The notes under the pieces were generated by a model. It saw nothing but the letters and a program-made list of their open reading frames with translations, was not told where the DNA came from and did not search any database. A stretch of DNA of 64,000 bases from Sabellastarte sp. h YS-2021 (Eukaryota; Annelida; Polychaeta; Sabellida; Sabellidae), in NCBI GenBank assembly GCA_964017235.1, contig OZ024930.1, positions 25,300,614-25,364,613 of the forward strand. Direction: 5' to 3'. Every line of letters starts with the position of its first letter. The stretch's first letter is position 1. Made by a program: the position numbers and the translations under genes. Shown here in pieces: positions 3,489 to 62,581 of the stretch.

Positions 3489-4328
3489 TTAAGCGTCCCT
3501 GAAAAGGGCGCTTATTTGTTTTCGCTTCACTTTCCTCACCGTCGTTGCCGCATTATGGTCTCCCTTGAATATCTCCCTTATTATTGCAAGCTTTTTAACC
3601 ATATTTGGCAGTTATATACCTTAGGCGTGGGGAAATTTCTCCACATGCTTAAATTTGATCTTTATCAAGGTCACATGATCAAAAAATAATGTTTTGAGTA
3701 CACCCCTACCCCCCTGTCATCGCCGCTCAGCAAAATCTGCTGACCGCAGAGGCTTGTAATTTTACACCCATGTTCATACTATCATCGGCAATCCAATGAA
3801 AATTGACTGATTATGAGCGATTTTCTCATACTTACCAACCAGAAAGCTTAAAATTCATGTGAACCCCCAATTATCTTCTTAAGTATTGCAGTTAGAGCCG
3901 TAAAATGCATTGGGAGGTAGTAGGAAACCATATGTGGAGAGTCTAGAAAGCAAGTCAATTTCCTCACCCCCCTGTAGGGGTCAAACTGGGGTCATAAAAT
4001 AGCTGATTTTGACATTTTCCCTTATATCTCCTTTATTATTGCTTTTAGAGCTTTAGAATGTATTAAGAGGTTTTGGGAAACTATATTCGGAGAGTCTAGA
4101 TAGCCAATCAAATATACCCCCTGACCCCCCCTATGAGTTAAACTGGGGTAATAAAATAGCCAATTTTGTGTTTTTGCCTCATATGTCCTTTGGATTTTTG
4201 GTTTTACAGCATTAAAATGGATTAACAGGTAGTTGGAATCTGTGGAGAGTCTAGGTAACTGGTCAAATTAGCCCTCTGACCTCCTGTTATGAGTCAAACG
4301 GGGGTAATAAAATATCAATTTTTCTGTT
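3489..4328 (+). mobile_element. 5' part of array-bearing element E1 (GCGTCCC family)
   Basis: Begins with TTAAGCGTCCC and a hairpin (GCGTCCCTGAAAAGGGCGC), the 5' terminus also seen at 32492. After about 450 bp of unique sequence it enters a tandem array of about 157 bp units whose marks are TCAAACTGGGGTCATAAAAT, CTTATATCTCC and GGAGAGTCTA. The array is interrupted at 4329 by another element and resumes at 5581 and 8461. No coding. Confidence 0.7.
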
Positions 4329-5580
4329 TTTCTGCGGGAAAAGTTTGTCCAGGCTGTATCTCAGAAACCGTAGGGACATTGGTTCGGAGGTGTATGTGTG
4401 CAACGTCATGGTGTGACCTTGATTTGACCTTTGACCTTGCCGTAGTGACCTTGAGTTTGAAAATCTTGTCCGGGCTATATCTTGGAAACAGTAAGGTGTA
4501 GGAAGGTGATACTTGGTAGGGATATTGGTTAAGGGGGTGTAGGTGTGCAACGTCATGGTCTGACCTTGATTTGACCTTGCCGTAGTGACCTTTACCAATA
4601 AAATCTTGTCCGGGCTATATCTCGGAAACCGTAAGGTGTAGGAAGTTGATGCTTGGTAGTGATATTGGTTAAGGGGGTGTAGGTGTGCAACGTCATGGTC
4701 TGACCTTGATTTGACCTTTGACCTTGCCGTAGTGACCTTGACCTATAAAATCTTGTCCGGGCTATATCTCGGATACTGTAAGGTGTAGGAAGTTGATACT
4801 TGGTAGGGACATTGGCTAGGGTGTGTAGATGTAAAACGTCATGGTGTGACCTTGATTTGACCTTTGACCTTGCCGTAGTGACCTTGACCTATAATGCCTT
4901 GTCTGGGTTTATAGTTTGGAAACCATAAGGTGTATGAAGTTGATATTTGGTAGGGACATTGGTCAAGGGTTATATATGTGTAACGTCATGGTGTGGCCTG
5001 GATTTGACCTTTGATCTTGCATATCTGATACTATTTTATGTCTCTACGAGGATATCTGATACTATTTATCTCTCTTATATCTCTCTTATATCTTTTTACT
5101 TGAATCTTGGTTGTTGCACCTTTGGGTGTCTTTTGGTGTAGATTAAGCACTGTTAAAGTCATATTAGAAGTCATTAACTGTTTTACTTTTGCAACTTCCC
5201 ATTGTAACAGATGGTATTGCATCAAGTGAGCCACAGGTTTTGCCCCAATTCCACATAAAAACATGTATTGCTACATCTGTGTGTATGGGTAATATTCAAA
5301 ACATCCAAACCATAATTCGACCATACAAATGAAAATCAAAATGGGAGAAGTCTTAAAGCTTCATAATTTTTAGTTTACTGAATTGTGTTGTTTTAATACT
5401 TATTCTTTACATGCTATTTCTTTCTCTTAGATGTTATTTTCTCTACTTAAACATTATTTAGACACTGACACTGCTCTGAAAGTATCCCAATCTGTGTACT
5501 GTTTCACTGCTTCTATATCTCATGGTGTTGAAAACTATTCTCCCAGGCTGTGGGGTACGGGCATCTCTGATGCTATTTTT
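4329..5580 (+). mobile_element. 5'-truncated F-type element with 147-bp tandem repeats (ACCCCACAG family)
   Basis: Interrupts a repeat unit of E1 between its TTTTT and GCCCCATATC parts. It starts inside the F-family head (compare 11640) and contains about 4.5 units of 140-147 bp marked by CTTGTCCGGGCTATATCTC, GACCTTGATTTGACC and TAGTGACCTTGACC. It ends with the family 3' module: GTGGGGTACGGGC, the small hairpin GCATCTCTGATGC and TATTTTT. The full-length relative at 11583-13397 shows that the 5' hairpin is missing here. Confidence 0.7.
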
Positions 5581-5989
5581 GCCCCATATCTTCTTTATTA
5601 TTGGTTTTACAGCTTTACAATTTTTATGTCGTCACTCTGTGGCGTGGGCGTACGCGTCCGCACGCGTCCGCATACGCATGAACATCTTCTCCTCCAAAAC
5701 TACAAGGCCTAGAGACATGCTGTTTTTTTTAAAAGATACCTTATCTATCGAGGATGAAAAATTGTTCAAGGCATGCAAATCTGTCTGTTCGTCTGTTTGC
5801 TAGAGACATTATAAGGGAGGTACCCCTACCAAAAGTGTGAAAATTTCAACACTTTATCACAATTTTCTCAGTGACTATTGCAGGGATTTCTCTCATATCT
5901 TGCATATATGTACTAGGCCAGAGGTAGATTCTCTTGTGTGAGTGTGAGACCTGGATCTGTCTTATTATTTTTTTAATAAATTTTTTTAA

Positions 5990-6835
5990 TAATTTTTAAT
6001 GCATTAAAATTCATGAAATCATGCACTAAATCACTTATAACTTGAAAAGTGTTGCATTTAGAGCATTTTGTTAAAATATGTTATTCAGCTACTTTTTTCA
6101 GAGCTACAAGATGGTGAGTAACTTGGATGTCTGTCTCAATAGCTAAGTGAGTAATAGCTACTTTTGGGCTTTTCAGTAACTTCCATCATGAGTAGAATCA
6201 CTTGTAACTTAAAAACTATTGCATTTAGAGAATTTCGTATAAATATGTTATTCAGCTACTTTTGGATCAGCTATAACATAGTGAAATTACAGACCTGTAG
6301 CTCATGGCACAACTGAGCAATAGCTATTTTCAGGTACTGCCTGTTGAGTAAATCAGTTGTAACTTGAAAAATATTGCATTTGGAGTATTTTGTTAAAATA
6401 TGTTGTTCACCTACTTTTGGGTCAGCTATAACATAGTGAAATTACAGACCTGTAGCTCATGGCATAGCTGAGCAATAGCTACTTTGAGGTTCTCACTATT
6501 GAGTAAATCAGTTGTAGCTTGAAAAATATTGCATTTGGAGTATTTTGTTAAAATATGTTGTTCACATACTTTTGGGTCAGCTATAACATAGTAAAAATTC
6601 AGATATATATCTCATTGCATAGCTGAGTAATAGCTACTTTGAGGTTATCACTGTTGAGTAAATCAGTTGTAACTTGAAAACTATTGCATTTAGAGTATTT
6701 TGTTTAAATATGTTATTCACGTAATTTTTGGTCAGCTATAACATAGTGAAATTGCAGACCTGTATGTCATGGCATAGCTGAGCAATAGCTACTTTCAGGT
6801 TCTCACTGTTGAGTAAATCATTGTATCCACTGGAT
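5990..6835 (+). repeat. 155-bp tandem array in copy A
   Basis: About 5.5 diverged units, marked by GTCAGCTATAACATAGTG, ACTATTGCATTTAGAG and GAGTAAATCAG. It belongs to the same repeat as the arrays at 17640, 37425 and 59240. Confidence 0.88.
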
Positions 6836-7009
6836 AGCCGCAGTGTGTAGAGAGATTTCACCATTACTGCTCTAACGAAAAAAAAATATTATAGCTAGCC
6901 TTCTCAACTTGCAGGATATATTAATAACCATAAAATGTTGCCTGGGAATATTTTTGGCCTCATTTTGAAAAACAAGATGGCCGCCACAGGTGTTTCTTTG
7001 TCAGTCATG

Positions 7010-8170
7010 AAAAGTGCTTCTATCTCTTATTATTGGTCCTAGAGGTTTGGGATGGTAAACCAACCTGTAGGAAATCATGGGATGTGAATCTTTTGGTGTG
7101 GTCAGATTTGATCTTTGACCCCTTCTTCAAGGTCAAACAAGGATAGCCAAACTTGAAAGTGCTTATAACTCGCTTATTATTGGTCCTAGAGGTTTGGGAT
7201 GGTAAACCAACATATAGGAAATCATGGGCTGGGAATCTGTTGATGTGGTCCGATTTGACCTTGGACCCCTCCTTCAAGGTCAAACGAGGATACCCCAACT
7301 AAAAAGTGCTTATAACTCACCTATTATTGGTCCTAGAGGTTTGGAATGGAAAACCTACCTATAGAAAATCATGGGCCGGGAATCTTTTGGTGTGGTCGGA
7401 TTTGACCTTGGATCCTGCCTTCAAGGTCAAACGAGGATAGCCAAACTTAAAAGTGCCTATAACTCACTTATTAATGGTCCTAGAAGTTTGGGATGGCAAA
7501 CCAACATATAGGAAATCATGGGCTGGGATTCTTTTGGTGTGGTCAGATTTGACCTTGGACTCCTCCTTCAAGGTCAATTGAGGATAGCCAAACTTAAAAG
7601 TGCTTATAACTCACTTATTATTGGTCCTACAGGTTTGGGATGGTAAACCAACCTACAGGAAATCATGGACTGGGAATCTTTTGGTGTGGTCGGATTTGAC
7701 CTTGGACCCCTCCTTCAAGGTCAAACAAGGATAGCGAAACTTAAAAGTGCCTATAACTCGCTTATTATTGATCCTAGAGGTTTGGGATGGTAAACCATCC
7801 TATAGGAAATCATGGGCTGGGAATCTTTTGGTGTGGTCAGATTTGACCTTGGACCCTGCCTTCAAGGTCAAACGAGGATAGCCAAACTTAAAAGTGCTTA
7901 TAACTCGCTTATTAATGGTCCTAGAAGTTTGGGATGGTAAACCAACATATAGGAAATCATGGGCTGGGATTTTGTTGGTGTGGTCAGATTTGACCTTTGG
8001 ACCCCTCCTTCTAGGTCAAATGAGGACAGCCAAACTTAAAAGTGCTTATAACTCGCTTATTATTGGTCCTAGAGGTTTGGGATGGTAAACCAACCTATAG
8101 GAAATCATGGGCTGGGAATGTTTTTGTGTGGTTGGATTTGACCTTGGACCCCTTCTTCAAGGTGGAACGA
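7010..8170 (+). repeat. 147-bp tandem array in copy A
   Basis: About 8 units; GGTCCTAGAGGTTTGGGATG recurs at exact 147-bp steps (7035, 7182, 7329, 7476). Each unit holds the inverted pair TTTGACCTTGG and TTCAAGGTCAAA. Confidence 0.9.
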
Positions 8171-8460
8171 GGATATTGCATTTCCAGTATTTCTTTAAAT
8201 ATGTTTTAATCTACTTTTTACACTTAAACAGTTACCTTGTTACTTTCCTTCATAATACCATTTGCAGGGCACAACTTTTTTGTCCTTTTCTTCTGTCAGC
8301 TTCGGAATTTCTTTCAAACATGCTGTTCAATTACCATTTACTGTACTTCTGTACAGCACTTTCCCTGATAATTATGCTTTCCTCTCATTATCACTTTCAC
8401 AAATCAAAAACACTCAGTCAGCTGATACAGTGCCCGTTCACGGGCACTCTCCTCTTGTTT

Positions 8461-8610
8461 AAGAGTTAGTGGGAAACCACATGTGGAGAGTCTTAATAGC
8501 TGGTCACAGTGGGGTCATAGATTGCAATTTCTACTTTAATATTTCAATATTTATGATCTCATTATCTTAATGTTATTTTCATATCTTAGTGCAAAGGATG
8601 TAACTTTTTG
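8461..8610 (+). mobile_element. Continuation of E1 after copy A
   Basis: The sequence AGTGGGAAACCACATGTGGAGAGTC resumes the 157-bp unit that was cut at 5620, proving that copy A is inserted. Similarity to E1 fades after about 8530 into AT-rich sequence in which nothing else is recognised. Confidence 0.6.
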
Positions 8611-8699
8611 AAATTGCACTCACGACTTATACTATTAAAACAGGCAAAATACATTCCTATTTTGTTCTCATCATCTAAAATTATGATATGCATCGAATT

Positions 8700-9836
8700 C
8701 AGCGTCCCGCTCTGCAAATGATTAGATTTTGGTAGACGACCATTAAAAAATGGCTAATTAATTAATTTCCTAACAAGGAAATACAAATCCCTTAATAACT
8801 TCTAAACCTTGCGAGATAGAGTGATTTCGACGAAATTTTTGGCCCACTGGGTATCTCTGCTAAGTACTCTGCTCAATTCCAAAAAAATTTCCTCTCTCCA
8901 AAAATGGCGGCTATTTTGAATTTTGTAATTTTTGACAAAAATGGTAAAACTTAAAATTGCTTGTATCTCCTAAACCGTGCGAGATAGAGCGATTTTGGCG
9001 AAATTTTTGGCCCGTAGGGTATATATGCAAGATAACCTGCTCAATTTTCAAAAAATTTTCCTCCTTCCAAAAATGGCGGCCATTTTGAATTTTCGAATTT
9101 TTGACAAAAATGGTAAAACTTAAAATTGCTTGTATCTCCTAAACTGTGCGTGATAGAGCGATTTCGGCGAAATTTTTGGCCCACAGGGTATATATGCAAG
9201 ATACCCTGCTCAATTCTCAAAAATTTTTCCTCTTTCCAAAAATGGCGGCCATTTTGAATTTTCGAATTTTTGACAAACATGGTAAACCGTAAAATTGCTT
9301 GTATCTCCTAAACCGTGCGAGATAGAGCGATTTCAGCGAAATTTTTGGCCCGTAGGGTATATATTCAAAATACTCTGTTCAATTTTCAAAAATTTTTCCT
9401 ACTTCCAAAAATGGTGGCCATTTTGAATTTTTGACAAAAATGGTAAAACTTAAAATTGCTTGTATCTCCTAAACCGTGCGAGATAGAGCGATTTTGGCGA
9501 AATTTTTGGCCCATACCCATAGGGTATATATGCAAGATACTCTGCTCAATTTTCAAAAATTTTTCCTCTTTCCAAAAATGGCAGCCATTTTCAACTTTCG
9601 AATTTTTGACAAAAATGGAAAAACTTCAAATTGCTTGTATCTCCTAAATCATGCGGTATAAAATGATTTCAGCAAAAGTTTCGATCCACAGGGTATCTAA
9701 GCAAGATACTCTGCCCAATTTTCAAAAATTTTTCCTCTTTTCAAAAATGTCAGCCATTTGAAATTTTCAAATGTTTGCCAAAAAACTTAAAATTGCTTGT
9801 ATCTCCTAAACCATTTTAAATTTCCCAATTTTTTTT
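8700..9836 (+). repeat. 169-bp tandem array (ATGGCGGCCAT family)
   Basis: After a short head resembling the one at 32760 (GCGTCCC, ATTAGATTTTGG, ATTAATTAATT), about 6 units follow at 169-bp steps (8971, 9140, 9309). Unit marks are CGTGCGAGATAGAGCGATTT, CACAGGGTATATATGC, AAAATGGCGGCCATTTTG and GAATTTTCGAATTTTTG. The last units are shorter and diverged. Similar arrays lie at 32880 and 40380. Confidence 0.88.
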
Positions 9837-11580
9837 TCGACTGATCACTGCCGCCGCAGGATTATGGTCTCCCTTGAATAACTTCTTGGGCTTTCAAATT
9901 TTTCTTTCCTTCTTATCTGTCTTTAAAACTATAGGGGCGGGAAAAATTTTTGGCATACTTTGTGCACACCTTAAGCTCTACTTAAGGTAACCTTAAGCAT
10001 TTTTCAAAAACACCCGTCATCGCGTTTCGGAAAAAAAACACACACATACCAGTACTATAAAATTTACCAGGTACATTGTAGACCAAATTTCATAGGTCAG
10101 AAAGGATTTTCTGATCAATCGGACCATAGATGCCTAGATGGGAGGCGTTTCATTTTCGTAAATTTTTAAAAATGGGTAATTTGTCTGCATCTCAGGATTT
10201 CGGCGTTTTGTTAGAATAACTTATTAAGCTACTTTTTGATAATCTTTCACATGCCGAAGTTTTTAGCCCTGTATCTGCAATCTTAAGGTCACCTTAATGT
10301 CAAAAAAGGGGGTTTTAGCCCTCCAATTCACTTAGTTTTTCACTTTTTTCAACCAAACTTGGCATATATATTAAGATTTACCAAAGGATTATCCTGACTT
10401 TATGGTGACCTTAAACTGTTAATATAATTGGAGCTATGGTCCCCCTAAAGTCATAAAATTGGAATAAAACCGTCTGGCCCCTTTATTTTTTCTATTTTTA
10501 AAGAATCCATCTTATATTGATATTGAGGTTGATCAAAAGAAGACATTAACTACCGTATGATTTAAATATTAATAATGTTATGGCCATCTTAAACTTAAAA
10601 TGTAGGGTTTTTCAGCCCTAAGTTCGGTTAATGTTTAAATTTTTAGAATAAAACTTGGAACATTTATAAAGGTTGCCAGAAGGGATATTCTGATTTTATG
10701 GTCACCTTAAAGTCCCAATATCAATGAAGTTATGGTCACCTTACAGTGAAAAAGGGAAGTTTTCAGCCTTCAGCTATCTTATTGTTCTACTGAACTTCTA
10801 CTTGAGTTATTTTGTGTTACATGTTAACTTTAAAAATATTTTATTTACAATTACAAAACCAGTTTACAACACTGCTCTAAATTCACATTTAATGGAGAGG
10901 GGTTGCAATATGCATGTAGTTGAATATTTTGACAAATTACCGAGAAAAAATGTTTCTTTAAGTAAAAAACAAAGCTTGTTATGGTCAGCCTTACTTTATG
11001 GAAAGTCAAAATAAATGCATTAGCAAAGAAAATCCATAAAGATTCCTTATTACATGCACAATTGGTATATGATCAATGAAGAGTATTTTAAATTCAGTTT
11101 TTAACATATTCAGAAATATTAGCCTATACTAATATCTGTTCTCATAACTACCATAAGGAAGTTATGTTTTGGATGTGTTTGTCTGTATCTGTGTTTCTTA
11201 ATACTCAAAAGGACATGAACAAATCTTTATGAAATTTTCTATGTACGTAGGGCCCGACTGAAGGAAATGAAATTAAATTTTGTGAAAAAATCCAGATCAC
11301 ATTCTGGATACAAAAACCCTGAATTTTCAAATTTCAAATTTTAATGTATTTTTTTCAAATAGTTTTGCTTTATTATGGTATCACTCTGCGGCGTCTTGTC
11401 TGTTTTGAGAGAATGGAAAAAGCCTGAAATATATCCTGGAAACAATTTACGATTCCACATTTACAGCTACAGTTTCTCTTCAGCCAACCTCTAGCAAAAA
11501 TGATTCGTAAAAAATATTACTTTACGAACACAATAAAGCTCACATTTTTCTTACAGTTTAATACTGTAACTGCTACAGTT
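9837..11580 (+). mobile_element. Degenerate array-bearing element with GGTGACCTTAA repeats
   Basis: The head (GCCGCAGGATTATGGTCTCC) resembles 3546, so it is probably another GCGTCCC-family member. Between 10220 and 10790 diverged units of about 150 bp share TTTTCAGCCCT and TGGTCACCTTAAA. No gene is recognised in 10800-11580, which is AT-rich; ATCACTCTGCGGCGTC near 11380 resembles the 5' head of copies A to D. Confidence 0.45.
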
Positions 11581-11582
11581 TT

Positions 11583-13397
11583 TACCCCACAGCCCTTAAG
11601 GGCTGTCGGGGTATTGTTTTCACCATGGTGTCCAGGCGGGCGGGCGGCGGGAAAAGGTTGTCCGGCCAGTATCTCAGAAACTGTAAGGTGTAGGAAGTTG
11701 ATACTTGGTAGGGACATTGGTTAGGGGGTGTACATGTGCAACGTCATGGTGTGACCTTGATTTGACCTTGCCATAGTGACCTTGAGTTTGAAAATCTTGT
11801 CCGGGCTATATCTCGGAAACCGTAAGGTGTAGGAAGTTGATACTTGGTAGGGATATTGGTTAGGGGGTGTAGGTGTGCAACGTCATGGTGTGACCTTGAT
11901 TTGACCTTTGACCTTGCCGTAGTGACCTTGACCTATAAAATCTTGTCCGGGCTATATCTCGAAAACTGTAAGGTGTAGGAAGTTGATATTTGGTAGGGAC
12001 ATTTGTTAGGCGGTGTAGGTGTGCATCGTCGTGGTCTGACCTTGATTTGACCTTTGACCTTGTCGTAGTGACCTTGACCTATAAAATCTTGTCCGGGCTA
12101 TATCTCAGAAACCGTAAGGTGTAGGAAGTTGATACTTGGTAGGGATATTGGTTAGGGGGTGTAGGTGTGCAACGTCATTGTGTGACCTTGATTTGACCTT
12201 TGACCTTGCTGTAGTGACCTTGACCTATAAAATCTTGTCCGGGCTATATCTTGGAAACCATAAGGTGTAGGAAGTTGATATTTGATAGGTACATTGGTTA
12301 GGCGTGTAGGTGTGCAACATCATGGTGTGACCTTGATTTGACCTTTGACCTTGCCGTAGTGACCTTGACCTATAAAATCTTGTCCGGGCTATATCTCAGA
12401 AACCGTAAGGTGTAGGAAATTGATACTTGGTAGGGACATTGGTTAGGGGGTGTAGGTGTGCAGCATCATGGTCTGACCGTGATTTGACCTTTGACCTTGC
12501 CATAGTGACCTTGACCTATAAAATATTGTCTGGTCTATATCTCAGAAACCGTAAGGTGTAGGAAGTTGATACTTGGTAGGGACATTGGTTATCGGCTATA
12601 GGTGTGTATTATCATGGTGTGACTTTAATTTGACCTTGTCGTAGTGACCTTGACCTTTAAAATCTTGTTGCACCTTTGGGTCTGTCTTTTGATGCAGATT
12701 AAGCACTGTTAATTCATATTAGAATTTATTAAGAATTTTACTTTCATAACTTTCCATTGTAAGAGATAGAATTTCATCAAGTGAGCCACAGATTTTGCTC
12801 CAACACCGCACATAAGCATTCATTAAATGTATTACACTTCTGTATGCATGGTAATATTCAAAACATCTAAACCATAATTCGGCCATGCAGAAGTAGATAA
12901 AGAGTGTTGAATTTTAGTTTACTGATTAATGCTGTCATCTTGTTATTGAATTATCTTGTTTTAATACTTCATCTTTACATGCATTATCTTTCTTTTAAAC
13001 ATTATTTTCTCCATTTAAACATTGTTTGGAACTTTATATAACTGAAAGTAACTGAAAGTATCCTGAAGTTTGTACTGGTACAGTACTTCTATATCTCATG
13101 GTGTTGAAAATATTTCCCTATTCTGTGGGGTACGGGCATCTCTGATGCTATTTTTTTTAGTTTACTGATTAATGCTGTCATCTTGCTATTGAAATGTCTT
13201 GTTTTAATACTTTATCTTTGCATACATTTTGTTCTTAGATGTTGTTTTCTCTACTTAAACATCATTTAGACCTTAATATAACTGACACTACTCTGAAAGT
13301 ATCCCGATCTTTGTACTGTTTCACTACTTCTATATCTCATGGTGTTGAAAACTATTTCCCTAGGCAGTGGGGTACGGGCATCTCTGATGCTATTTTT
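11583..13397 (+). mobile_element. F-type array-bearing element, fullest copy
   Basis: The 5' end has TACCCCACAG and the hairpin ACAGCCCTTAAGGGCTGT. About 7 units of 140-147 bp (11645-12660) follow, then a module beginning GCACCTTTGGGT. The 3' end has CTGTGGGGTACGGGC, repeating the 5' arm in inverted form, then the hairpin GCATCTCTGATGC and TATTTTT. The 3' module is present twice (ends at about 13155 and 13397), a tandem duplication of about 240 bp. No coding; short open frames over the repeats are not genes. Confidence 0.78.
11645..12660 (+). repeat. 147-bp tandem array of the F family
   Basis: Units share TATCTCGGAAACCGTAAGG, AGGAAGTTGATACTTGGTAG, GTGCAACGTCATGGTGTGAC and TTTGACCTTTGACCTTGCC. 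Some units are 7 bp shorter through loss of one TTTGACC. Confidence 0.9.
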
Positions 13398-13469: not shown

Positions 13470-13522
13470 TCTCCATCCGGCCGCTCGTTTTTTTTTTTGT
13501 TAGCAAAAACCTTTTTCTAGTT
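13470..13522 (+). mobile_element. Isolated 3' terminus of the GCGTCCC family
   Basis: TTTGTTAGCAAAAACC followed by TTTTTCTAGTTG matches the 3' hairpin and end seen at 15216, 43148 and 35687. Its body is not recognisable, so it is a fragment. Confidence 0.5.
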
Positions 13523-15216
13523 GTGTCCTTGTTTTGGAAACAAAATGGCCACCATATCACATCTTTAATGCCAAATAGGAGGGTCATCATATCAAAAAGG
13601 CCTTATATCCCCCTTATAATTGTTTCTTTGGCTTCAAAATATGAAAACTACTTGTAAGAAATCATGGCCTGTGAATCTTTTGTAGAACATCTCGTGGGTT
13701 TTCTATACTTCTTACAACAGAAGTTGTTCCTAAGATTTTCCCAAATCTCAATGTTGTTGGCCATTTAACTGTACCTGCGGGCTGGGGTTCTTGCCTGCCG
13801 AGGCTGGCTATTTTTGATGCACAGTGTCATGGCAAATTTTCAGAGCTGTAGGTCCATAGCTAACCGAGTAATAGCTACTTTGACAGTTCACCATTGAATA
13901 AATCACTTATAGCTGGAAATCTTTTGCACCTATCCTTACCAAAGTTTCAAGATATCTTCCCTGCTATGAAATCTTGCATGGCTAACATTTGGTCCAGTTT
14001 GTTCAATTTGGTTGGTTGCTATGGCAATGAATTTAAAAATCTGAGGTGACCAAACTTAAAGAAGCCTAAATCTCCCTTATTATTGGTCGTAGAGGTTTTG
14101 GATGTGAAGACAACTAATAGGAAATCATGTGCCCCGAATATTTTGCTGGTTTCAGATTTGACTTTGGACCCCTCCTTCAAGGTCAAATGTGGTTCTTCAT
14201 ACCTATAATGACCTATATCTCCTTGTTATTGGTCATATAGGTTTTGAATGTGAAGACAACCTATAGGAAATCATATGCCCCGGATCTTTTGTTGGGGTCA
14301 GATTTGACCTTAGATCCCTCCTTCTTCAAGGTCGAATATGGTCCTTGATACCTCTAATGGTCTATATCTGCCTTATTATTGGTTGTAGAGGTTTTGGATG
14401 TGAAGACAACTTATAGGAAATCATGTGCCCCGAATCTTTTGGTGGGGTCAGATTTGACCTTGGACCCCTCCTTCAAGGTCAAATGTGGTTCTTCATACCT
14501 ATAATGGACTATATCTCCCCTATTATTGGTCGTAGAGGTTTTGGATGTGAGGACAACTTATATGAAATCATGTGCCCCGAATCTTCTGGTGGGGTCAGAT
14601 TTAACGTTAGATCCCTCCTTCAAGGTTGAATGTGGGCCTTGATACTAGTTATAATGGCCTATATCTCCCTTATTATTGGTCGTAGTGGTTTTGGCGCTAA
14701 AGACGACTTATGGGAAATCATCTGCCCTGAATCTTATGATGGGGTCACATTTGTCCTTGGGCCCTCCTTCAAGGTTGAATGTGGTCCTTGATTTGACCTT
14801 CAACCCCTCCTTTAAGGTTGAAGGTGGTACTTAATACTTGTAATGACCTATATCTCCCTTATTATTGGTCGCACCGTATAATTTGGCATAGGGGTTTGGG
14901 ATGTTAAGACAACTTACAGGAAACCATCTGCCCCAGTTCTTGTGGTGGGGTCAGATTTGAGCTTTGACTCCTTCTTGAGAGTCACATTTAGTCCCTGATA
15001 TCTATAATGGCCTGTGTCTCACTTATAATAGGTCGTAGCTTTTTTGGTTGTGGAGACAACTTATAGGAAATTGTGTGTTAACATAATTCTCTGTATGTCA
15101 CTCTTCAACCATGTCCCGTGCGGAGATACACTGCATCTAGACGCAATATGTAATATTATATTGCATTTAACCTTTGAGACACTTTGTTTTTGTTAGCAAA
15201 AACATTTTTCTAGTTT
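13523..15216 (+). mobile_element. Array-bearing element with diverged 147-bp units and a TAGCAAAAAC 3' end
   Basis: About seven units of 146-150 bp (14050-15080) share TTATTATTGGTCGTAGAGG, TCATGTGCCCCGAATC and CCTCCTTCAAGGTC. They are related to, but distinct from, the 147-bp unit of copies A to D. The 3' end is GTTTTTGTTAGCAAAAAC (hairpin) then ATTTTTCTAGTTT. The 5' end is not clearly seen. Confidence 0.65.
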
Positions 15217-25646: not shown

Positions 25647-25649
25647 CAT

Positions 25650-30994: not shown

Positions 30995-31007
30995 TGTAAA
31001 ACTTTAA

Positions 31008-32322: not shown

Positions 32323-32879
32323 GTTAGAAAACCACAACTGGTGTAATATTTGGTGAATATTACCAAGTTCACAGCGGGACAGGTGTTTAGACTGTTGCAC
32401 TCTAATTTAAATCAATGTGGACTTTTATAGCGCTTAATCTCCATCAATTAACAAACTCTCAGGTGCAGGTGAATATACAACCCCCCCTTAGTTAAGCGTC
32501 CCTTACGGGACGTTTGTTTGTGTATGGGAGACCTTCAGGCTCCGCATTTTGTTTTCCTTATAACTCTGTAACCGTTAGGCGGATTCTTTTCAAATTTGTC
32601 AGGTTTAGGCAGTAGCCTTGGGGAATTTTTTTGAATATGCTGCAGTGACATTTCAACCAATCAGAGAGGTCACATGACCAAAAATGTCTTTTTTCGATGG
32701 GGAAGCTTGTCCGGATGATAACTTGAAAGGAATTTTATCAATTCACCTGAAACCTGGCAAATACATTCATTCTATTAAAATCTGAAAATCATTAGATTTT
32801 GGCATTGATTGGTTAAGAAATGGCCGAATAATTAATGATTAATTAATCATTATGAATTTTCCAAATAAGGAAAACACAA

Positions 32880-33960
32880 AAATGCTTATATCTGGAAAAC
32901 CGTGCTAGATAGAGCGATTTCGACGAAATTTTTGACCCACAGGGTATCTCTGTGGAGTAGTTATCCCATTTTTGAAAAAAATTTTGTCTCGCCAAAAATG
33001 GCGGCCATTTTGAATTTTCGAATTTTTCACAAAAATTGCAAAACATAAAAATGCTTATATCTCGAAAACCGTACTAGATAGAGCGATTTCGACGAAATTT
33101 TTGACCCACAGGGTATCTCTGCGGAGTAGTTATCCCAGGTTTGAAAAAAATTTTGTCTCGCCAAAAATGGCGGCCATTTTGAATTTTTCGCAAAAATTGC
33201 AAAACATAAAAATGCTTATATCTCGAAAACCGTACTAGATAGAGCAATTTAGACGAAATTTTTGACCCACAGGGTAGCTCTGCAGAGTAGCCATGCCTAT
33301 TTTCAAAAAAATTTTATCTTGCCAAAAATGGCGGCCATTTTGAATTTTCGAATTTTTCGCAAAAATTGCAAAACATAAAAATGCTTATATCTCGAAAACC
33401 GTGCTAGATAGAGCGATTTCGACAAAATTTTTGACCCATCGGATATCTCTGCAGAGTAGCCATGCCAATTTTCAAAAAAAAAATTTCTCGCAAAAAATGG
33501 CAGCCATTTTGAATTTTCGAATTTTTCGCAAAATTACAAAACATAAAAATGCTTATATCTCGAAAACCGTGCTAGATAGAGCGATTTCGACGAAATTTTT
33601 TACCCATAGGGTATCTCTGCAGAGTAGCCATGCCAATTTTCAAAAAAAAAAATTCTCGCAAAAAATGGCAGCCATTTTGAATTTTCGAATTTTTCGCAAA
33701 ATTACAAAACATAAAAATGCTTATATCTCGAAAACCGTGCTAGATAGAGCGATTTCGACGAAATTTTTGACCCATCGGGTATCTCTGCAGAGTAGTTATC
33801 CCAATTTCAAAAAAAAAATTTTCTTGCCAAAAATGGCGGCCATTTTGAATTTTCGAATTTTTGCGCAAAAATTGCAAAACACAAAAATGCTAATATTTCG
33901 AAAACCGTGCTACATAGAGCGATTTCGACCAAATTTTTAATCTTCAGGGTATCTCTGCAG
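32880..33960 (+). repeat. 169-bp-type tandem array (ATGGCGGCCAT family)
   Basis: About six units of 160-170 bp with CTCGAAAACCGTGCTAGATAG, CACAGGGTATCTCTGC and AAAATGGCGGCCATTTTG, each ending GAATTTTCGAATTTTTCGC. Some units carry a G-to-A change giving AAAATGGCAGCC. Confidence 0.9.
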
Positions 33961-33973
33961 AGCAGCTATCCCA

Positions 33974-35180
33974 AAGAGCTTTCACTTGGTGAAGTTTCAG
34001 ACCCATAGCTAATTACTCACCTACTCAAAATGAGTAAATGCGAATTACCTCTAAAAGTATTGCAGATGGCCAATTTTTCTCAAATAACTCATTCACCTAC
34101 TTTTGGAAGAGCTTTCACTTGGTGAAGTTTCAGACCCGTAGCTTATTACTCACCTACTCAAAATGAGTAAATGCTAATTATCTCAAAAACTATTGCGGAT
34201 ACCCAATTTTTATCAAATAACTCATTCATGTACTTTTGGGAGAGCTTTCACATGGTGAAGTTTCAGACCCATAGCTAATTACTCACCTACTCAAAATGAG
34301 TAAATGTGAATTATCTCTAAAAGTATTGCAGATAGCCAATTTTTCTCAAATAACTCATTCACCTACTTTTGGGAGAGCTTTCACTCAGTGAAGTTTCAGA
34401 CCCATAGCTAATTATTTACCTACTCAAAATGAGTAAATGCTAATTATCTGTAAAAGTATTGCGGATACCCAATTTTTATCAAATAACTCATTCATCTACT
34501 TGTGGGAGAGCTTTCACATGGTGAAGTTTCAGACCCATAGCTAATTACTCACCTACTCAAAATGAGTAAATGCGAATTATCTCTAAAAGTATTGCAGATA
34601 GCCAATTTTTCTCAAAGAAATCATTCGTCTACTTTTGGGAGAGCTTTCACTTGGTGAAGTTTCAGACCCATAGCTAATTACTCACCTACTCAAAATGAGT
34701 AAATGTGAATTATCTCTAAAAGTATTGCAGATAGCCAATTTTTCTCAAATAACTCATTCACCTACTTTTGGGAGAGCTTTCACTCTGTGAAGTTTCAGAC
34801 CCATAGCTATTTATTCACCTACTCAAAATGAGTAAATGCGAATTATCTGTAAAAGTATTGCGGATACCCACTTTTTATCAAATACTCATTCATCGACTTG
34901 TGGGAGAGCTTTCACATGGTGAAGTTTCAGACCCATAGCTAATTACTCGCCTACTCAAAATGAGTAAATGCGAATTATCTCTAAAAGTATTGCAGATAGC
35001 CAATTTTTCTCAAATAACTCATTCACCTACTTTTGGGAGAGCTTTCACTTGGTGAAGTTTCAGACCCATAGCTAATTATTCACCTACTCAAAATGAGTAA
35101 ATGTGAATTATCTCTTAATAGTATTGCAGATTGCCAATTTTTCTCAAATAACTCATTCACCTACTTTTGGAAGAGCTTTC
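33974..35180 (+). repeat. 133-bp tandem array
   Basis: About nine units; AGCTTTCAC recurs at 33977, 34110 and 34243, exact 133-bp steps. Unit marks are GAAGTTTCAGACCCATAGC, CTCAAAATGAGTAAATG and ATCAAATAACTCATTC. Alternating subtypes (CAGATAGCC and CGGATACCC) suggest a two-unit order. Confidence 0.92.
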
Positions 35181-35689
35181 ACACACGAAAATGAAAATTT
35201 GTGAATATCTCAGAAAAGCTATTTCTTCTCCTTTAATGCTCGGCGGGAGATACACACCGCGGCAGTGGTCTTGACAAAAATTTTTGTCTCCCCAAAAATG
35301 GTGGCCATTTTGAATTTTCAAAGTTTTTGCAAAACACAAAAATGCTTATATCTCGAAAACCGTGCTATATGGAGCGAACTCAACAAAATTTTTGACCTGC
35401 TGGGTATCTGCAGAGTAGCCATGCCAATTTTCCAAATATTTTTGTCTCGCCAAATATAGTGGACATTTTTAATTTTTTAATTTTTGGTAAAACACAAAAA
35501 TGCTTATATCTTGAAAACCGTGCTAGATAGAGCAGACTGCGCTGACTTTGGTTGCCACAACAGTATAAGGCTAGAAACGAAGCATTTTCTTAATAATTTA
35601 GCACTCACCTTTATATCCTTTTCGGGACGCTTTGTTTTTGCATAGCAAAAACATTATCTTTTTTTTTTGCGAGCGATCCTCTAGTTTGG

Positions 35690-39891: not shown

Positions 39892-40379
39892 AGAGGAGTA
39901 GAAAGATTCTCGTAATAATCTAGCATCAGTGGATCAGGTTGTGAATTCTATAGCACCTTCTGTTTTTGCCTCATCAGTTGTTCCTCCAAATAAATATTTT
40001 GGCATTATATTTTAATTTTGTGGACATATTATTTTTGCTTTTTCCGGCGTCCGGCGTCCCACTTGGTTTCCAGACATTTTAGGCACCAGTTCTTATCCTA
40101 TCTTTACCAAATTTGGCATGCAGTTTATTGGGTTAATAGGTTGTATGGGATTGCTTTTGGTGATGATAGCTCTATAGCTAACTGAGTAATAGCTACTTTG
40201 CTACTTTTGAGTATCTCTTTGGTTTCCAGACATTTTAAGGAATGCTATTAAGCCTAGCTTTCTGAAATTTGGTATGGAGGTTCATTGGGTTAATAGGTTG
40301 TATGGGATTGCTTTTGGGGGTAATTGCTTCATAGATGAGTGAGTAATTAATTAAATAAATGAGTAATTGGCTATTTTGA
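39892..40379 (+). other. Array-poor head of the next element
   Basis: No gene. GGCGTCCGGCGTCCCACTTGG near 40046 and two copies of TTAATAGGTTGTATGGGATTG (about 40133 and 40290, 157 bp apart) suggest the head of the array-bearing element that follows. Confidence 0.45.
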
Positions 40380-42215
40380 ATACTGATAAAGGCAAACGTG
40401 CTCATATCTCCTAAACTGTGCGAGATAGAGCGATTTCGTCAAAATTTTCAATCCCCAGGGTATCTAAGGAATGTAATCTTTGCAGTTATGAAAATATTTT
40501 CCCCTCCCCAAAAATGGCGGCCATTTTGAATTTTCGAATTTTTGCCCAAAATGGCAAAACACAAATTTGCTTCTATCTCCTTAACCGTGCGAGATAGAGC
40601 GATTTCATCGAAATTTTCAAGCCACAGGGTATCTAAGGAATGTACTCTTTGCAATTTAAAAAAAAAATTTCCCCTTCTCAAAAATGGCGGCCATTTTGAA
40701 CTTTCGAATTTTTGCCAAAAATGGCAAAACACAAATTTGCTACTGTCTCCTTAACCATGCGAGATAGAGCGATTTCGTCGAAATTTTCAACCCACAGGGT
40801 ATCTAAGGAATGTACTCTTTGCAATTTTCAAAAAATTTTCCCCTCCCCAAAAATGGCGGCCATTTTGAATTTTGAATTTTTGCCAAAAATGGGAAAACAC
40901 AAATTTGCTTTTATCTCCTTAACCATGCGAGATAGAGCGATTTCATCAAAATTTTCGACCCACAGGGTATTTGAGCATTGTACTCTTGGCAATTTTTAAA
41001 AAATTTTCCCCTCCCCAAAAATGGCGGCCTTTTTGAATTTTGGCCAAAAATAGCAAAACACGAATTTGCTTCTATCTCCTTAACCGTGTGACACAGAGTG
41101 ATTTCGTCAAAATTTTCAACCCACAGGGTATCCGAGCAATGTACTCTTGGCAATTTCAAAAAATTTTCCCCTCCTCAAAAATGGCGGCCATTTTAAATTT
41201 TCGAATTTTTGCCAAAAATGGCAAAACACAAAATTGCTTCTATCTCCTTAACCGTGCGAGATAGAGCGATTTCGTCGAAATTTTCGACCCACAGGTTATC
41301 TCAGAAATGCACTCTTAGCAATTTTGAAAAAAAGTTCTCCGCATAAATGGCGACCATTTTGAATTTTCGAATTTTTGCCAAAAATGGCAAAACACGAATT
41401 TGCTTCTATCTCCTTAACCATGTGAGATAGAGGGATTTCGTCGAAATTTTTGACCCACAGGGTATCTGAGCGATGTACTCCTGGCAATGTTCAAAAATTT
41501 TCCTCTTCCCACATATGGCGACCATTTTGAATTTTCGAATTTTTCCCCAAAATGGCAAAACACAAAATTGCTTCTATCTCCTTAACCATGCGAGATAGAG
41601 TGATTTCGTCAAAATTTTCGACCCACAGGGTATTTGAGCAATGTACTCTTGGCAATTTTGAAAAAAATTTCCCTCCCCAAAAATGGCGGCCATTTTGAAT
41701 TTTCGAATTTTTGCCAGAAATAGCAAAACACGAATTTGCTTCTATCTCCTTAACTGTGTGACACAGAACGATTTCGTCGAAACTTTCAGCCCACAGGGTA
41801 TCCGAGCAATGTACTCTTGGCAATTTCAAAAAATTTTCCCCTCCTCAAAAATGGCGGCCATTTTAAATTTTCGAATTTTTGCCAAAAATGGCAAAACACA
41901 AAATTGCTTCTATCTCCTTAACTGTGTGAGATAGAGTGATTTCGTCGAAATTTTCGACCCAAAGGTTATCTCAGAAATGCACTCTTAGCAATTTTCAAAA
42001 AAATTTCCCTTCCCCAAAAATGGTGACCATTTTGAATTTTCGAATTTTTGCCAAAAATGGCAAAACACGAATTTGCTTCTATCTCCTTAACCGTGTGAGA
42101 TAGAGGGATTTCGTCGAAATTTTCGACCCAAAGGGTATCTGAGCGATGTACTCTTGGCAATTTTCAAAAATTTTCCTCTTCCCACATATGGCGGCCATTT
42201 TGAATTTTCGAATTT
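40380..42215 (+). repeat. 169-bp-type tandem array (ATGGCGGCCAT family), longest copy
   Basis: About 11-12 units of roughly 155-170 bp with CTTAACCGTGCGAGATAGAG, GGTATCTAAGGAATGTACTC and AAAATGGCGGCCATTTTG, each followed by GAATTTTCGAATTTTTGCC. A multi-unit block is repeated (near 41040-41490 and 41700-42160), hinting at a higher-order order here too. Confidence 0.88.
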
Positions 42216-43040
42216 TACCCCCCCGGCGCCCCCCTTATGGGTCAAACTGGGGTTATAAAATAGCTGATTTTGAGTTTTTGCCTTATATCTCCTTTATTGT
42301 TGCTTTTATAGCTTTAGAATGTATTAAGAGGTATTGAGAAAGAATATGTGGAGAGTCTAAATAGCCGGTCAGTTTTACCCCCCGACGCCCCCCCCCCCCC
42401 CCCCCCTTATGGGCCAAACTGGGGTCATAAATAGCTGCTTTGGAGTTTTTGCCTTATATCTCCTTTATCGTTGCTTTTATAGCTTCAGAATGTATTAAGA
42501 GGTATTGGGAAAGCATATGTGGAGAATCTATATAGCCGGTCAGTTTTATCCCCCGACCCCCCTTTATGGGTCAAACTGGGGTCATAAAATAGTTGCTTTG
42601 GAGTTTTGCCTTATATCTCCTTTATTGTTGCTTTTATACCTTCAGAATGTATTAAGAGGTATTGGGAAAGCATATGTAGAGAGTCTAAATAGCCGGTCAG
42701 TTTTACCCCCTGACCCTCTCTTATGGGCCAAACTGGGGTCATAAATAGCCGGTAAGCTTGTAGCTTATAAAAGCTACATTTAAGTAATTAAAATTTTCAA
42801 TTTTGAGTTTTTGCCTTATATCTCCTTTATTGTTGCTTTTATAGCTTCAGAATATATTAAGAGGTATTGGGAAAACATATGTGGAGAGTCTAAATAGCCG
42901 GTCAGTTTTACCCCCCCGACCCTCCCTTATGGGCCAAACTGGGGTCATAAATAGCTGCTTTGGAGTTTTTGCCTTATATCGCCTTTATTGTTGCTTTTAT
43001 AGCTTCAGAATGTATTAAGAGGTATTGGGAAAGCATACAG
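42216..43040 (+). repeat. 157-bp tandem array with poly-C tracts
   Basis: About five units with GCCTTATATCTCCTTTATTG, GTATTAAGAGGTATTGGG and GAGAGTCTAAATAGCCGG, then a C-rich segment and TATGGGTCAAACTGGGGTC. The C-rich segment varies from a few bases to a run of 19 C (42388-42406), changing unit length. Confidence 0.88.
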
Positions 43041-43148
43041 TGCAGCTTTGTGCATTCTTAACTTTACAGCATGTTCATTAAAACCACAAAGCATTTTAAA
43101 CTTTAAGGGACGCTTCGCTTTTGTTAGCAAAAGCATTCCTCTAGTTTC

Positions 43149-47200: not shown

Positions 47201-47275
47201 CTACAACCAAGTCTTCAGGAGTCTCCCAGGATCTAAGTATTCCTTTACCTTCAAGATGTTACGGGTAAGGTCATT

Positions 47276-48588
47276 TTTAGGCGGGTTGCGTGTAACCAAC
47301 CCGCCTATTAGATTGATGTGTCCGACGTCCGTCTGTCTGTCTGTCCGTCTGTCGGTCCACATTTTTCGTTTCCGGACTCTAACTTTAAAACGGTTTGACC
47401 AATCAAATTCAAACTTCACAGGGAGATAGATCACCATCATAGCTAGGTTCCTTTCGAAATTGGTGAAATTCCGTGTGTTCGTTTGTCCGTTTTTCGTCCG
47501 TTTGTCTGTCCATCCATCTGTTTGTCCACATTTTCGTTTCCGGACTCTAACTTTAAAACGGTTTGACCAATCAAATTCAAACTTCACAGGGAGATAGATC
47601 ACCATCATAGCTAGGTTCCTTTCGAAATTGGTGAAATTCCGTGTGTTCGTTTGTCCGTTTTTCGTCCGTTTGTCTGTCCATCCATCTGTTTGTCCACATT
47701 TTCGTTTCTGGACTCTAACTTGAAAACGGTTAGACCAATCAAATTCAAACTTCACAGGGAGATAGATCACCATCATAGCTAGGTTCCTTTCGAAATTGGT
47801 GAAATTCCGTGTGTTCGTTTGTCCGTTTTTCGTCCGTTTGTCCATCCATCTGTTTGTCCACATTTTCGTTTCCGGACTCTAACTTTAAAACGGTTTGACC
47901 AATCAAATTCAAACTTCACAGGGAGATAGATCACCATCATAGCTAGGTTCCTTTCGAAATTGGTGAAATTCCGTCTGTTTGTTTGTCCGTTTTTCCGTCC
48001 GTTTCTTCGTTTTTGTCCGTTTTTCTGTCCATCCATCTGTCCGTCCACATTTTTGTTTCCGGACTCTAACTCGAAAACGGTTACTCCAATCTAATTCAAA
48101 CTTCACAGGGACATACATCACCATCATAGCTAGGTTCCTTTCGAAATTGGTGTAAATCCGTCCGTTCATTTGTCTTGTTTTTCTGTCCATTTGTTCGTTT
48201 TTAGGCGGGTTGCGTGTAACCAACCCGCCTATTAGATTGATGTGTCCGACGTCCGTCTGTCCGTCCACATTTTCCATTTCCGGACTCTAACTTGAAAACG
48301 GTTTGACCAATCAAATTCAAACTTGACAGGGACATAGATCAACATGATAGCTAGGTTCCTTTCGATATTGGTGAAATTCTGTCCGTTCGTTTGTCCGTTT
48401 TTCGTCCGTATGTCTGTCCATCCGTCTGTTTGTCCACATTTTCGTTTCCGGACTCTAACTCGAACACATTTACCTTAAGTGGGTAACCTAACATTTCTTT
48501 CCTTGTTCCTAAATTTAATGAGAGCAGTTGCTAACCTTGTTTCCTGCGTGCGCAACCCGCCTTTTGGGGCACCTCTGACCCTCTTGTT
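47276..48588 (+). mobile_element. GGCGGGTTGCG-family array-bearing elements (two 5' ends, one 3' end)
   Basis: Two copies of the 5' head (near 47278 and 48203) carry the hairpin GGCGGGTTGCGTGTAACC with ACCCGCC. The body is a minisatellite of about 168 bp (GACTCTAAC at 47375, 47543, 47711) rich in CTGTCCGT and GTTTGTCC. The 3' end at 48546-48588 has GCGCAACCCGCC, repeating the 5' arm inverted, then ACCCTCTTGTT. The second copy begins in a T-run of the first copy's repeat, so it is nested or tandem, and only one 3' end remains. Open frames on the minus strand come from the array and are not genes. Confidence 0.75.
47330..48480 (+). repeat. 168-bp minisatellite of the GGCGGGTTGCG family
   Basis: Units share TTAAAACGGTTTGACCAATC, AACTTCACAGGGAGATAG, CACCATCATAGCTAGG and TTTCGAAATTGGTGAAATTC. 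Length varies (164-187 bp) through the CTGTCCGT-rich part. Confidence 0.9.
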
Positions 48589-49009: not shown

Positions 49010-49327
49010 AAATTGAAAATTTTAATTACTTAAGTGTAGCTTTTATAAGCTACAAGCTTACCATGTGGGACTTAGAAGAGTCCCACCCTGCCTCCCCGCT
49101 GTTTACAGCTGAGGGGTAGGTTTTAGAAAATTTCAACGAGAAAGTGGGGCGATTGGTCAGAAGTTATCACGTGACGACAACTACCACTATATCCTGCGGC
49201 TAACAAGAACTGTCTTTTTTTCTAAGACGTTGGCCCGGGTGTGGCAACCCGAGAACAGCATTAAGTCCCACATGGTAAGCTTGTAGCTTATAAAAGCTAC
49301 GTTTAAGTAATTAAAATTTTCAATTTT
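49010..49327. mobile_element. Inverted-repeat structure with 65-bp arms (TAGCTTATAAAAGCTA motif)
   Basis: The stretch 49010-49075 (GAAAATTTTAATTACTTAAG to CCATGTGGGACTTA) is the inverted complement of 49258-49327. The arms contain AAGCTTGTAGC and TTATAAAAGCTAC. About 180 bp lie between them. It may be a MITE or the inverted terminal repeats of the neighbouring DIRS-like element. Confidence 0.6.
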
Positions 49328-50316
49328 GAGTTTTTGCCTTATACCTCCTTTATTGTTGCTTTTATAGCTTCAGAATGTATTAACGGGTATTGGGAAAGCA
49401 TATATGGAGAGTCTAAATAGCCGGTCAGTTTTACCCCCCGACCCCCCCTTATGGGTCAAACTGGGGTCATAAAATAGCCGATTTTGAGTTTTTGCCTTTA
49501 TCTCCTTTATTGTTGCCTTTATAGCTTCAGAATATATTAAGAGGTATTGGGAAAACATATGTGGAGAGTCTAAATAGCCGGTCAGTTTTACCCCCCGACC
49601 CCCCCCCCCCCCCCTTATGGGCCAAACTGGGGTCATAAATAGCTGCTTTGGAGTTTTTGCCTTATATCTCCTTTATTGTTGCTTTTATACCTTCAAAATG
49701 TATTAAAAGGTATTTGAAAGCATATGTGGAGAGTCTAAATAGCCGGTCAGTTTTACCCCCCCCCCCCCCCCCCCCCCCCTTATGGGTCAAACTGGGGTCA
49801 TAAAATAGCTCATTTTGAGTTTTTGCCTTATATCTCCTTTATTGTTGCTTTTATAGCTTCAGAATGTATTAAGAGGTATTGGGAAAGCATATGTGGAGAA
49901 TCTAAATAGCCGGTCAGTTTTATCCCCCGACCCCCCTTTATGGGTCAAACTGGGGTCATAAAATAGTTGCTTTGGAGTTTTGCCTTATATCTCCTTTATT
50001 GTTGCTTTTAGACCTTCAGAATGTATTAACAGGTATTGGGAAAGCATATGTGGAGAGTCTAAATAGCTGGTCAGTTTTACCCCCCGACCCTCTCTTATAG
50101 GCCAAACTGGGGTCATAAATAGCTGCTTTGGAGTTTTTGCCTTATATCTCCTTTATTGTTGCTTTTATAGCTTCAGAATATATTAAGAGGTATTGGGAAA
50201 GCATACAGTTCAGCTTTGTGCATTCTTAGCTTTACAGCATGCTTATTAAAACCACAAAGCATTTTAAACTTTCAGGGATTTTTCGCTTTTTTTTAGGCAA
50301 AGCATTCCTCTAGTTT
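49328..50316 (+). mobile_element. Second 3' half of a GCGTCCC-family element: 157-bp array and 3' end
   Basis: The array units (GCCTTATATCTCCTTTATTG, GAGAGTCTAAATAGCCGG) and the 3' end closely match 42216-43148, including ACCACAAAGCATTTTAAAC and ATTCCTCTAGTTT. The hairpin is partly worn (TTTTTTTTAGGCAAAGC). C-runs lie at 49599-49614 and 49756-49779. The 169-bp part is absent. Confidence 0.78.
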
Positions 50317-51672
<1,356 letters not shown>

Positions 51673-52404: not shown

Positions 52405-54325
<1,921 letters not shown>

Positions 54326-56772: not shown

Positions 56773-56805
56773 ATTAAATGTGTAAATTTGTGTCTGTGTT
56801 TATAG

Positions 56806-60970: not shown

Positions 60971-61299
60971 CCACTGGATAGCCGCAGTGTGTAGAGAGAT
61001 TTAACCATTGCCGCTCTAATGAAAAAAATATTATAGCTAGCCTTCTCAAGTTTGCAGAATATATTAATAACCATAAAATGTTGTCTGGGAATATTTTTGG
61101 CCTCATTTTGAAAAACAAGATGGCCGCCAGGGACGTTTATTCGACTTTAAAAAGGACTTTTGTTGACCCTCTAGAGCAAAGGGTATTATAAGTAGAGATC
61201 TCAAATTCGCAGGATATGTTCCTCATTATAAAATCTTGACTGGGAATATTTTTGGGCTCATTTTGAAAAACAAGATGGCCGCCACTGGTGTTTCTTTGT

Positions 61300-61880
61300 C
61301 AGTCATGAAAAGAGCTTATATCTCCCTTATTATTGGTCCTAGAGGTTTGGGATGGTAAACCAACCTGTAGGAAATCATCGGCTGGGAATCTTTTGGTGTG
61401 GTCAGATTTGACCTTTGACCCCTCCTTCAAGGTCAAACGAGGATAGCCAAACTTAAAAGTGCTTATAACTCGCTTATTATTGGTCCTAGAGGTTTGGGAT
61501 GGTAAACAGACATATAGGAAATCATGGGCTGGGAATCTGTTGATGTTGTCCGATTTGACCTTGAGCCCCTTTTTCAAGGTCAAACAAATATAGCGAAACT
61601 TAAAAGTGCCTATAACTCGCTTATTATTGGTTCTAGAGGTTTGGGATGGTAAACCATCCTATAGGAAATCATGGGCTGGGAATCTTTTGGTGTGGTCAGA
61701 TTTGACCTTTGGATCCCTCCTTCAAGGTCAAATAAGGACAGCCAAACTTAAAAGTGCTTATAACTCACTTATTATTGGTCCTAGAGGTTTGGGATGGTAA
61801 ATCAACCTATAGGAAATCATGGGCTGGGAATATTTTTGTTTGGTCAGATTTGACCTTGGACCCCTTCAAGGTCGTACGAG
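61300..61880 (+). repeat. 147-bp tandem array in copy D
   Basis: About four units with TTATTATTGGTCCTAGAGG, GGAAATCATGGGCTGGGAAT and the inverted TTTGACC/GGTCAAA pair. Confidence 0.88.
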
Positions 61881-62581
61881 GATACTGCATTTGCAGTATT
61901 TCTTTAAATATGTTTTAACCTACTCTTTACACTTAAACAGTTACCTTGTTACTTTCCTTCATAAAACCATTTGCAGGGCACAACTTTTTGGTCCTTTTCT
62001 TCTGTCAGGTTCAGAATTTCTTTGAACATGCTGTTCAATTACCATTTACTGTACATCTGTACAGCACTTTCCCTGATAATTATGCTTTCCTCTCATTATT
62101 ACCTTCACAAATCAAAAGCACTCAGTCAGCTGACACAGTGCCCGTTCACGGGCACTCTCCTCTTGTTTATCATTGTTGATGATTATTCATAGTTATTTTG
62201 ATATGTTTCTTGAATAGCTGAGTTTAAATTTCTCTTCAAAAGTTTTACTGAGCATTATATCAGTAACCTGTCTTGTCAAAAAATATATCAGTTATTTAAA
62301 CTAAAAGACTGCCCACAAGTGAGTTTTAACTCATTAAATCCTAACTCAGGTTCTTGTACCTTTGATGTTTTCACATAAAATATTTTGTCATACATCAAAG
62401 CTGCCAGTACCTTTTATTGGGGGAATTTGTGCAGAATACTCACTTTTGTCAAACAAACTCAGGCTGAGTGACTGAATGCTAAAATAGGCTGTGGAGTCCT
62501 AATTGCAGTTAAGCTTGTTTCATCAAACAGGATTAACATCAAAGTTTTCTGCATTTGTTTCATGTAATTAATGAAGCGCCA

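Follow-up and report, generated by a model that had tools for sequence, protein, structure and literature searches.

We show that a 64,000-nucleotide stretch of the genome of the sabellid polychaete Sabellastarte sp. h YS-2021 (assembly GCA_964017235.1, contig OZ024930.1, positions 25,300,614 to 25,364,613 of the forward strand; hereafter the window) carries plus-strand pieces of a USP4/15-type deubiquitinase gene with splice-like borders, together with 13 copies of non-coding repetitive elements (Table 1). These elements are very probably HINEs (Helentron-associated interspersed elements), that is, non-autonomous Helentron-type rolling-circle transposons, belonging to at least four end-sequence families, here called C, G, H and F, with satellite-like central arrays. 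They have paired ends, 5' hairpins, tandem arrays, T-flanked sites and nested copies, and for one of them there is a clean empty site. Their shared terminal architecture is the published architecture of HINEs such as DINE-1 and the oyster Cg_HINE. Three further plus-strand fragments (13156-13397, 13484-13524 and 25429-25650) were left out of the count.

Table 1. Elements and host gene pieces recognised in the window (window positions).
Feature	Position	Strand	Description
G1	3489..9845	+	G family; 5' hairpin AAGCGTCCC at 3491; 157-bp and 168-bp arrays; split by F1 and C1; right limit approximate; own 3' end not found in window
F1	4332..5580	+	F family; lacks 5' hairpin; F 3' end intact; within G1 157-bp array
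C1	5626..8459	+	C family; lacks 5' hairpin; 3' end intact; within G1 157-bp array; clean empty site
F	11582..13155	+	5' hairpin, 146-bp array, 3' end
X	14064..15216	+	C-like 150-bp array; G-like 3' end, terminal TTTCTAGTTT; left limit is array start; 5' end not found in window
C2	17261..25430	+	C family; lacks 5' hairpin; 42-copy 155-bp array; 3' end intact
G2	32493..35687	+	G family; both ends; 168-bp and 133-bp arrays
C3	36999..39890	+	C family; both ends; 155-bp and 143-147-bp arrays
G3	40000..43147	+	G-type arrays and 3' end; lacks 5' AAGCGTCCC arm; left limit approximate
H	47274..48588	+	Two identical 39-bp 5' ends (47274, 48198); 168-bp array; one 3' end
G4	49324..50316	+	157-bp array; G 3' end decayed
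F 3'-end fragment, ~245 bp	51222..51470	+	Stops 34 bases short of host exon
C4	58821..62167	+	C family; both ends; 155-bp and 147-bp arrays
Host gene piece	1141-1268	+	DUSP
Host gene piece	ends at 30130	+	Cys-box, by motif
Host gene piece	51505-51663	+	
Host gene piece	52722-52946	+	

The original prediction, made from the letters of the window, held that four element families share one arrangement of their ends. We located its motifs by position, and read and mapped the ends by local alignment on both strands. Elements of the C, G, H and F families start with a 5' hairpin, the first arm of which recurs, reverse-complemented, shortly before the 3' end. Exact subterminal inverted pairs measure 12 bases in C3, C4 and H, 10 in F and 9 in G2. 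In the C family, the arm TGTCAGCTGAC (37005 and 58827) answers to GTCAGCTGACA (25388, 39848 and 62125, with a one-mismatch copy at 8417), which directly precedes AGTGCCCGTTCACGGGCACT and CTCCTCTTGTTT, with 3' hairpins at 8429, 25400, 39860 and 62137. G2 pairs AAGCGTCCC at 32494 with GGGACGCTT at 35624, followed by a TTTTG..TAGCAAAA hairpin and, some 20 bases further on, CCTCTAGTTT; H pairs GGCGGGTTGCG at 47280 with CGCAACCCGCC at 48551, then CCCTCTTGTT; and F pairs TACCCCACAG at 11583 with CTGTGGGGTA at 13123, then GCATCTCTGATGC and TATTTTT. The end pairs predicted for C, H, F and the element at 32492 (G2) were thus all recovered, and folding supports a 3' hairpin in C, F and G2, more weakly in X and G3, and not in H. 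The proposal erred on the element placed at 40380 (G3), which retains a 3' part at 43107-43147 without the 5' arm, exact plus-strand copies of which lie solely at 3491 and 32494.

Inverted matches of this length are uncommon by chance. Among 40,000 random pairs of non-array positions, the longest inverted match reached at least 9 bases in 217, at least 10 in 58 and at least 11 in 13, figures that are a guide rather than a corrected probability because the end positions had been picked beforehand. All five 5' hairpins folded better than 200 of 200 shuffled sequences (z -4.9 to -8.2). At the 3' ends, shuffles folded equally well or better in 0/200 cases for C and for F, 1/200 for G2, 3/200 for X and 8/200 for G3; the presence of a short 3' stem is uninformative by itself, given that 18,353 of 40,000 random 45-mers contain a stem of at least 5. 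The G-type 3' stem also shows one compensatory change, from a T-A pair in G2 and X to C-G in G3. The limits of the C family were obtained from alignment and therefore support the ends separately from the hairpin argument: C3 and C4 begin to align at 36999 and 58821 (TTTTTATGTCAGC), and alignment of the four C copies ends 2-3 bases beyond CTCTTGTT. The DNA on the outer side of C3 does not match that of C4. In these independent insertions, the repeat limits fall at the ends that bear the hairpins. A check for microsatellites in H and C found TGTCCGTC units near the 5' end of H (47319-47357) and a short CTGTCTGTTCGTCTGTTTG stretch in C. We also scanned de novo for hairpins with a distant second arm, which gave 70 cases on the plus strand and 37 on the minus strand against 1-8 in ten shuffles; these were mostly tandem arrays, and the scan, which recovered only C of the four families, was dropped as evidence.

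Ends are unevenly preserved. C has a 5' hairpin in two of four copies and a 3' end in all four. A single 5' end and four 3' ends belong to F, along with a fragment (25429-25650) that lost the hairpin. In H, a pair of 5' ends accompanies a single 3' end. The G family contributes two 5' ends, two 3' ends and a decayed third 3' end, and two more G-related 3' ends occur in X (15216) and near 13524. C1, C2, F1, G3, G4 and X have no 5' end and hence no end pair. In C1, the start reads TTTTTATGTCGTCAC (5617-5635), as compared with TTTTTATGTC-hairpin-ATGTCGTCAC in C3 and C4 (ATGTCATCAC in C3), and its hairpin seems to have been deleted between ATGTC repeats. Two F 3' ends stand in tandem (12912-13155 and 13156-13397), 85% alike and each closing with the F terminal hairpin; they may have arisen by duplication at T runs.

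Two nested copies are informative about insertion, since C1 and F1 lie inside the G1 157-bp array and the remaining array units serve as empty sites. If C1 is taken to run from ATGTC to CTTGTT, its flanks join as ...ACAATTTTT-TAAGAG..., a sequence that aligns without gaps to array units of G3 and G4, and with one 2-base gap elsewhere to the G1 array. The unit length is unchanged, nothing is lost or duplicated at the target, and the joint is T/T, as expected from the suggestion that these elements insert between two T residues. The joined flanks of F1 continue through CTGTTTTT-GCCCCATATC as in other array units, which is compatible with such an insertion and ambiguous within a T run. The insertion sites of the other copies were judged by their flanks alone.

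Inside the elements we found 19 tandem arrays with periods of 133-169 bp, in agreement with the arrays noted originally. The accompanying view that the family bodies are unrelated holds for H, which has no body match to other families among the 19 arrays compared, and needs revision for C and G, the bodies of which have diverged array pieces in common: the G2 133-bp array is 63-65% alike to the C 155-bp arrays, and early in G3 a stretch of 47 bp (40170-40216) matches C at 83%. Moreover, the 150-bp array of X is a diverged version of the C 147-bp array (71-75%), and shorter matches of 32-40 bp join F with C and G1 with the C arrays. No opposite-strand matches were found between different arrays among the 19; the lone minus-strand match spans 44 bp within one array. 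The C2 155-bp array (17645-24328) has about 42 copies and a higher-order period of 1859 bp, with 92.7% identity at that shift and blocks of up to 100%. For comparison, the longest oyster HINE array given in the available part of PMC7492417 has 29.3 monomers, and arrays of up to 48 appear in that of PMC8268682.

These features closely resemble those of described HINEs, as far as the accessible portions of the cited reports extend. Cg_HINE elements of the oyster Crassostrea gigas have a 5' subterminal inverted repeat with an inverted-repeat hairpin, a microsatellite, central arrays with units of about 140-180 bp, and a 3' subterminal inverted repeat with a palindrome; they occupy T-rich sites with a preference for TT and lack target duplications, and they comprise several families with unrelated modules, related ends on unrelated arrays and two-array elements (PMC7492417). 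The mixing of modules in oysters parallels the sharing of arrays among C, G and X, and the GTCC/GTCY repeats of Cg_HINE resemble the TGTCCGTC units of H (PMC7492417). The likeness is one of description rather than of sequence, and H differs in lacking the 3' palindrome. Pearl, CvE, MgE and DTC84 of bivalves, as described in PMC7492417, likewise carry repeats of some 160 bp in the centre, enclosed by conserved flanks. HINEs and DINE-1 of a mite and of flies share subterminal inverted repeats, a 5' inverted repeat or palindromic subterminal repeat, a 3' stem-loop, border T runs of variable number, TT sites and, in some, tandem repeats, but they belong to other hosts and have been matched to autonomous Helentron partners (PMC4067079, PMC2374699). 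Central tandem repeats are optional in HINEs generally. Finally, the composite FoHeli elements of Fusarium, with Helitron2-type ends, can like H combine a pair of 5' termini with a single 3' terminus, although they are fungal and include autonomous copies, while H is non-coding (PMC5148889).

Several observations weigh against assigning these elements to HINEs. The 5' hairpin is absent from C1, C2, F1, G3 and G4; a 3' hairpin in H is unsupported (57/200 shuffles fold equally well), and the 3' flank of H starts with G rather than T. F1 is flanked by T5 on both sides, so that a TTTTT duplication is indistinguishable from element-borne T; in Helentrons, border T runs are regarded as part of the element and vary in number (PMC4067079, available part). 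Moreover, no Rep/helicase was found among the window's open reading frames searched against Pfam, which covered all 12 stop-to-stop frames of at least 130 amino acids and 17 of 81 of 75-129 amino acids (29/93). The same 29 frames revealed no proteins of other transposon types within the elements.

Inverted repeats near both ends could instead mark miniature inverted-repeat transposable elements (MITEs) of a DDE transposon, cut out at short inverted repeats by a transposase and flanked by target duplications, an outcome that the original prediction had itself named as refuting and to which a DDE relic in the window (1491-2689) lends some colour. We consider this very unlikely: the relic lies outside all 13 elements, the C1 empty site has no duplication, and the ends are asymmetric, with the 5' repeat in a hairpin and the 3' repeat followed by a second hairpin and a tail. 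The elements are, if anything, still less likely to be canonical Helitrons (Helitron1), which have 5'-TC and 3'-CTRR ends and insert between A and T. A hairpin near the 3' end and the CTAG of the G tail would fit such an origin, but the 5'-TC start is absent, the C and H tails read CTTG rather than CTRR, and C1 sits between T and T; a 5' hairpin together with subterminal inverted repeats is, moreover, the pattern of Helitron2/Helentron elements (PMC5148889, accessible part). The Helentron-type reading of the original prediction was thus supported by those features that could be tested. Two outcomes named beforehand as refuting it were looked for and did not occur: the C ends do not lie away from the hairpins, and the C1 site has no target duplication. 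As a HINE, each element would be mobilised in trans by the Rep/helicase of an autonomous Helentron located elsewhere, which would nick the 5' end marked by the hairpin and subterminal repeat, displace one strand, stop at the 3' subterminal repeat, palindrome and tail, and insert that strand between T residues without target duplication. The enzyme and the strand chemistry in this scheme are presumed.

The 9-mer CCTCTWGTT occurs nine times on the plus strand of the window and never on the minus strand. Eight of the nine sites are family ends (four of C, one of H and three of G, the G tail having CTAG and the C and H tails CTTG), and the ninth lies at 31925. The tail is TTTCTAGTT in X-type ends and GATGCTATTTTT in F. 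We rejected CCTCTAGTT at 31925 as an additional G end, given that no subterminal repeat or hairpin was seen by eye in the preceding stretch; we take this motif to resemble a pogo-type terminal repeat. On sequence grounds, the common tail speaks for shared descent of C, G and H or for related machinery, and these families probably use the same or related enzymes. A single machinery may mobilise all families, although the different tail of F does not favour its inclusion. Searches with the C 3' end gave no matches in viral_contigs, and five matches of an 18-mer from it in genome_contigs, all in bacterial records, were taken as chance and not used.

Other repeats accompany the elements. Above the Pfam cut-off, the search recovered DDE_1 and HTH_Tnp_Tc5 in the relic mentioned above, a minus-strand transposase of the Tc5/pogo type, and UCH in one host exon; below it were a second host exon with UCH, a stretch at about 44.7-45.5 kb with RVT_1 and RT_RNaseH, and two translated arrays with matches to five scattered families. 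The reverse transcriptase and RNase H traces belong to a retroelement (44675-47278), for which a DIRS type would be a guess, and H is inserted into or beside it. An inverted pair of repeats, each about 148 bp long and 86% alike, contains 29-bp tandem units and occupies 58678-58825 and 63234-63380; C4 starts at the inner border of the left copy. A 151-bp repeat present in opposite orientations at 30845-30995 and 55653-55803 (96% identity) is apparently a recent dispersed element of a different kind.

All 13 counted elements lie on the plus strand, in the sense orientation of the deubiquitinase gene, 12 of them between its first and third recognised pieces and C4 past the fourth. No His-box piece turned up downstream in a crude motif scan, and the gene may extend beyond the window. 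The F 3' end at 51222-51470 adjoins the splice acceptor of the exon that follows it. Under equal odds and independence, the two-sided probability of a single orientation is 2.4e-4 for 13/13 copies and 9.8e-4 for 11/11 once the two nested in G1 are omitted, values to be read in the light of a test devised after the data were seen and of copies that are not fully independent. For DNA outside the elements, a T-rich target was rejected as the cause, as 26765 bases there contain 274 T-runs and 304 A-runs of at least 4; inside the elements the counts are 507 and 387, and this excess may contribute to the orientation of the nested copies.

We lean towards selection or chance, rather than insertion chemistry, as the source of this co-orientation, with antisense copies in introns being removed for their poly(A) signals. 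All 13 copies fall within the span of one plus-strand gene, AATAAA and ATTAAA together number 22 in sense against 39 in antisense over 11 elements, and oyster HINEs occur in both orientations genome-wide (PMC7492417, available part). The antisense excess is modest, however, with AATAAA alone at 8 versus 17 and 11 of those 17 contributed by G3 and G4, and the other 33021 bases of the window, mostly intron, hold 78 sense and 56 antisense hexamers, which speaks against strong selection. It is conceivable, though rather doubtful, that insertion is strand-specific over long stretches, such that a single-stranded intermediate enters one exposed strand and families become co-oriented through a gene. 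Exposure could come from transcription of a gene, which would offer the non-template strand, or from replication forks, which would offer one template strand. Strand-directed insertion is described for IS200/IS605 (PMC5371812, accessible part), which follow replication in bacteria and offer an analogy. DINE-1 has many copies in fly introns, and the word orientation is not used in the available text of that report (PMC2374699); likewise, a one-way orientation within a gene is not described in that of PMC7492417. Our literature searches found no study of HINE orientation, which is not proof of absence.

Taken together, our findings add a further case to what is known of HINEs that carry satellites and share one end design. 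That design has already been published and is in this sense ordinary; the co-orientation of every recognised copy in one gene is less so. In oysters, none of ten autonomous Helentrons could be linked to the HINEs, according to the accessible part of PMC7492417, which makes the CCTCTWGTT tail a practical handle for locating an autonomous partner of C, H and G. If true genome-wide, the one-way orientation would reveal which strand these elements enter.

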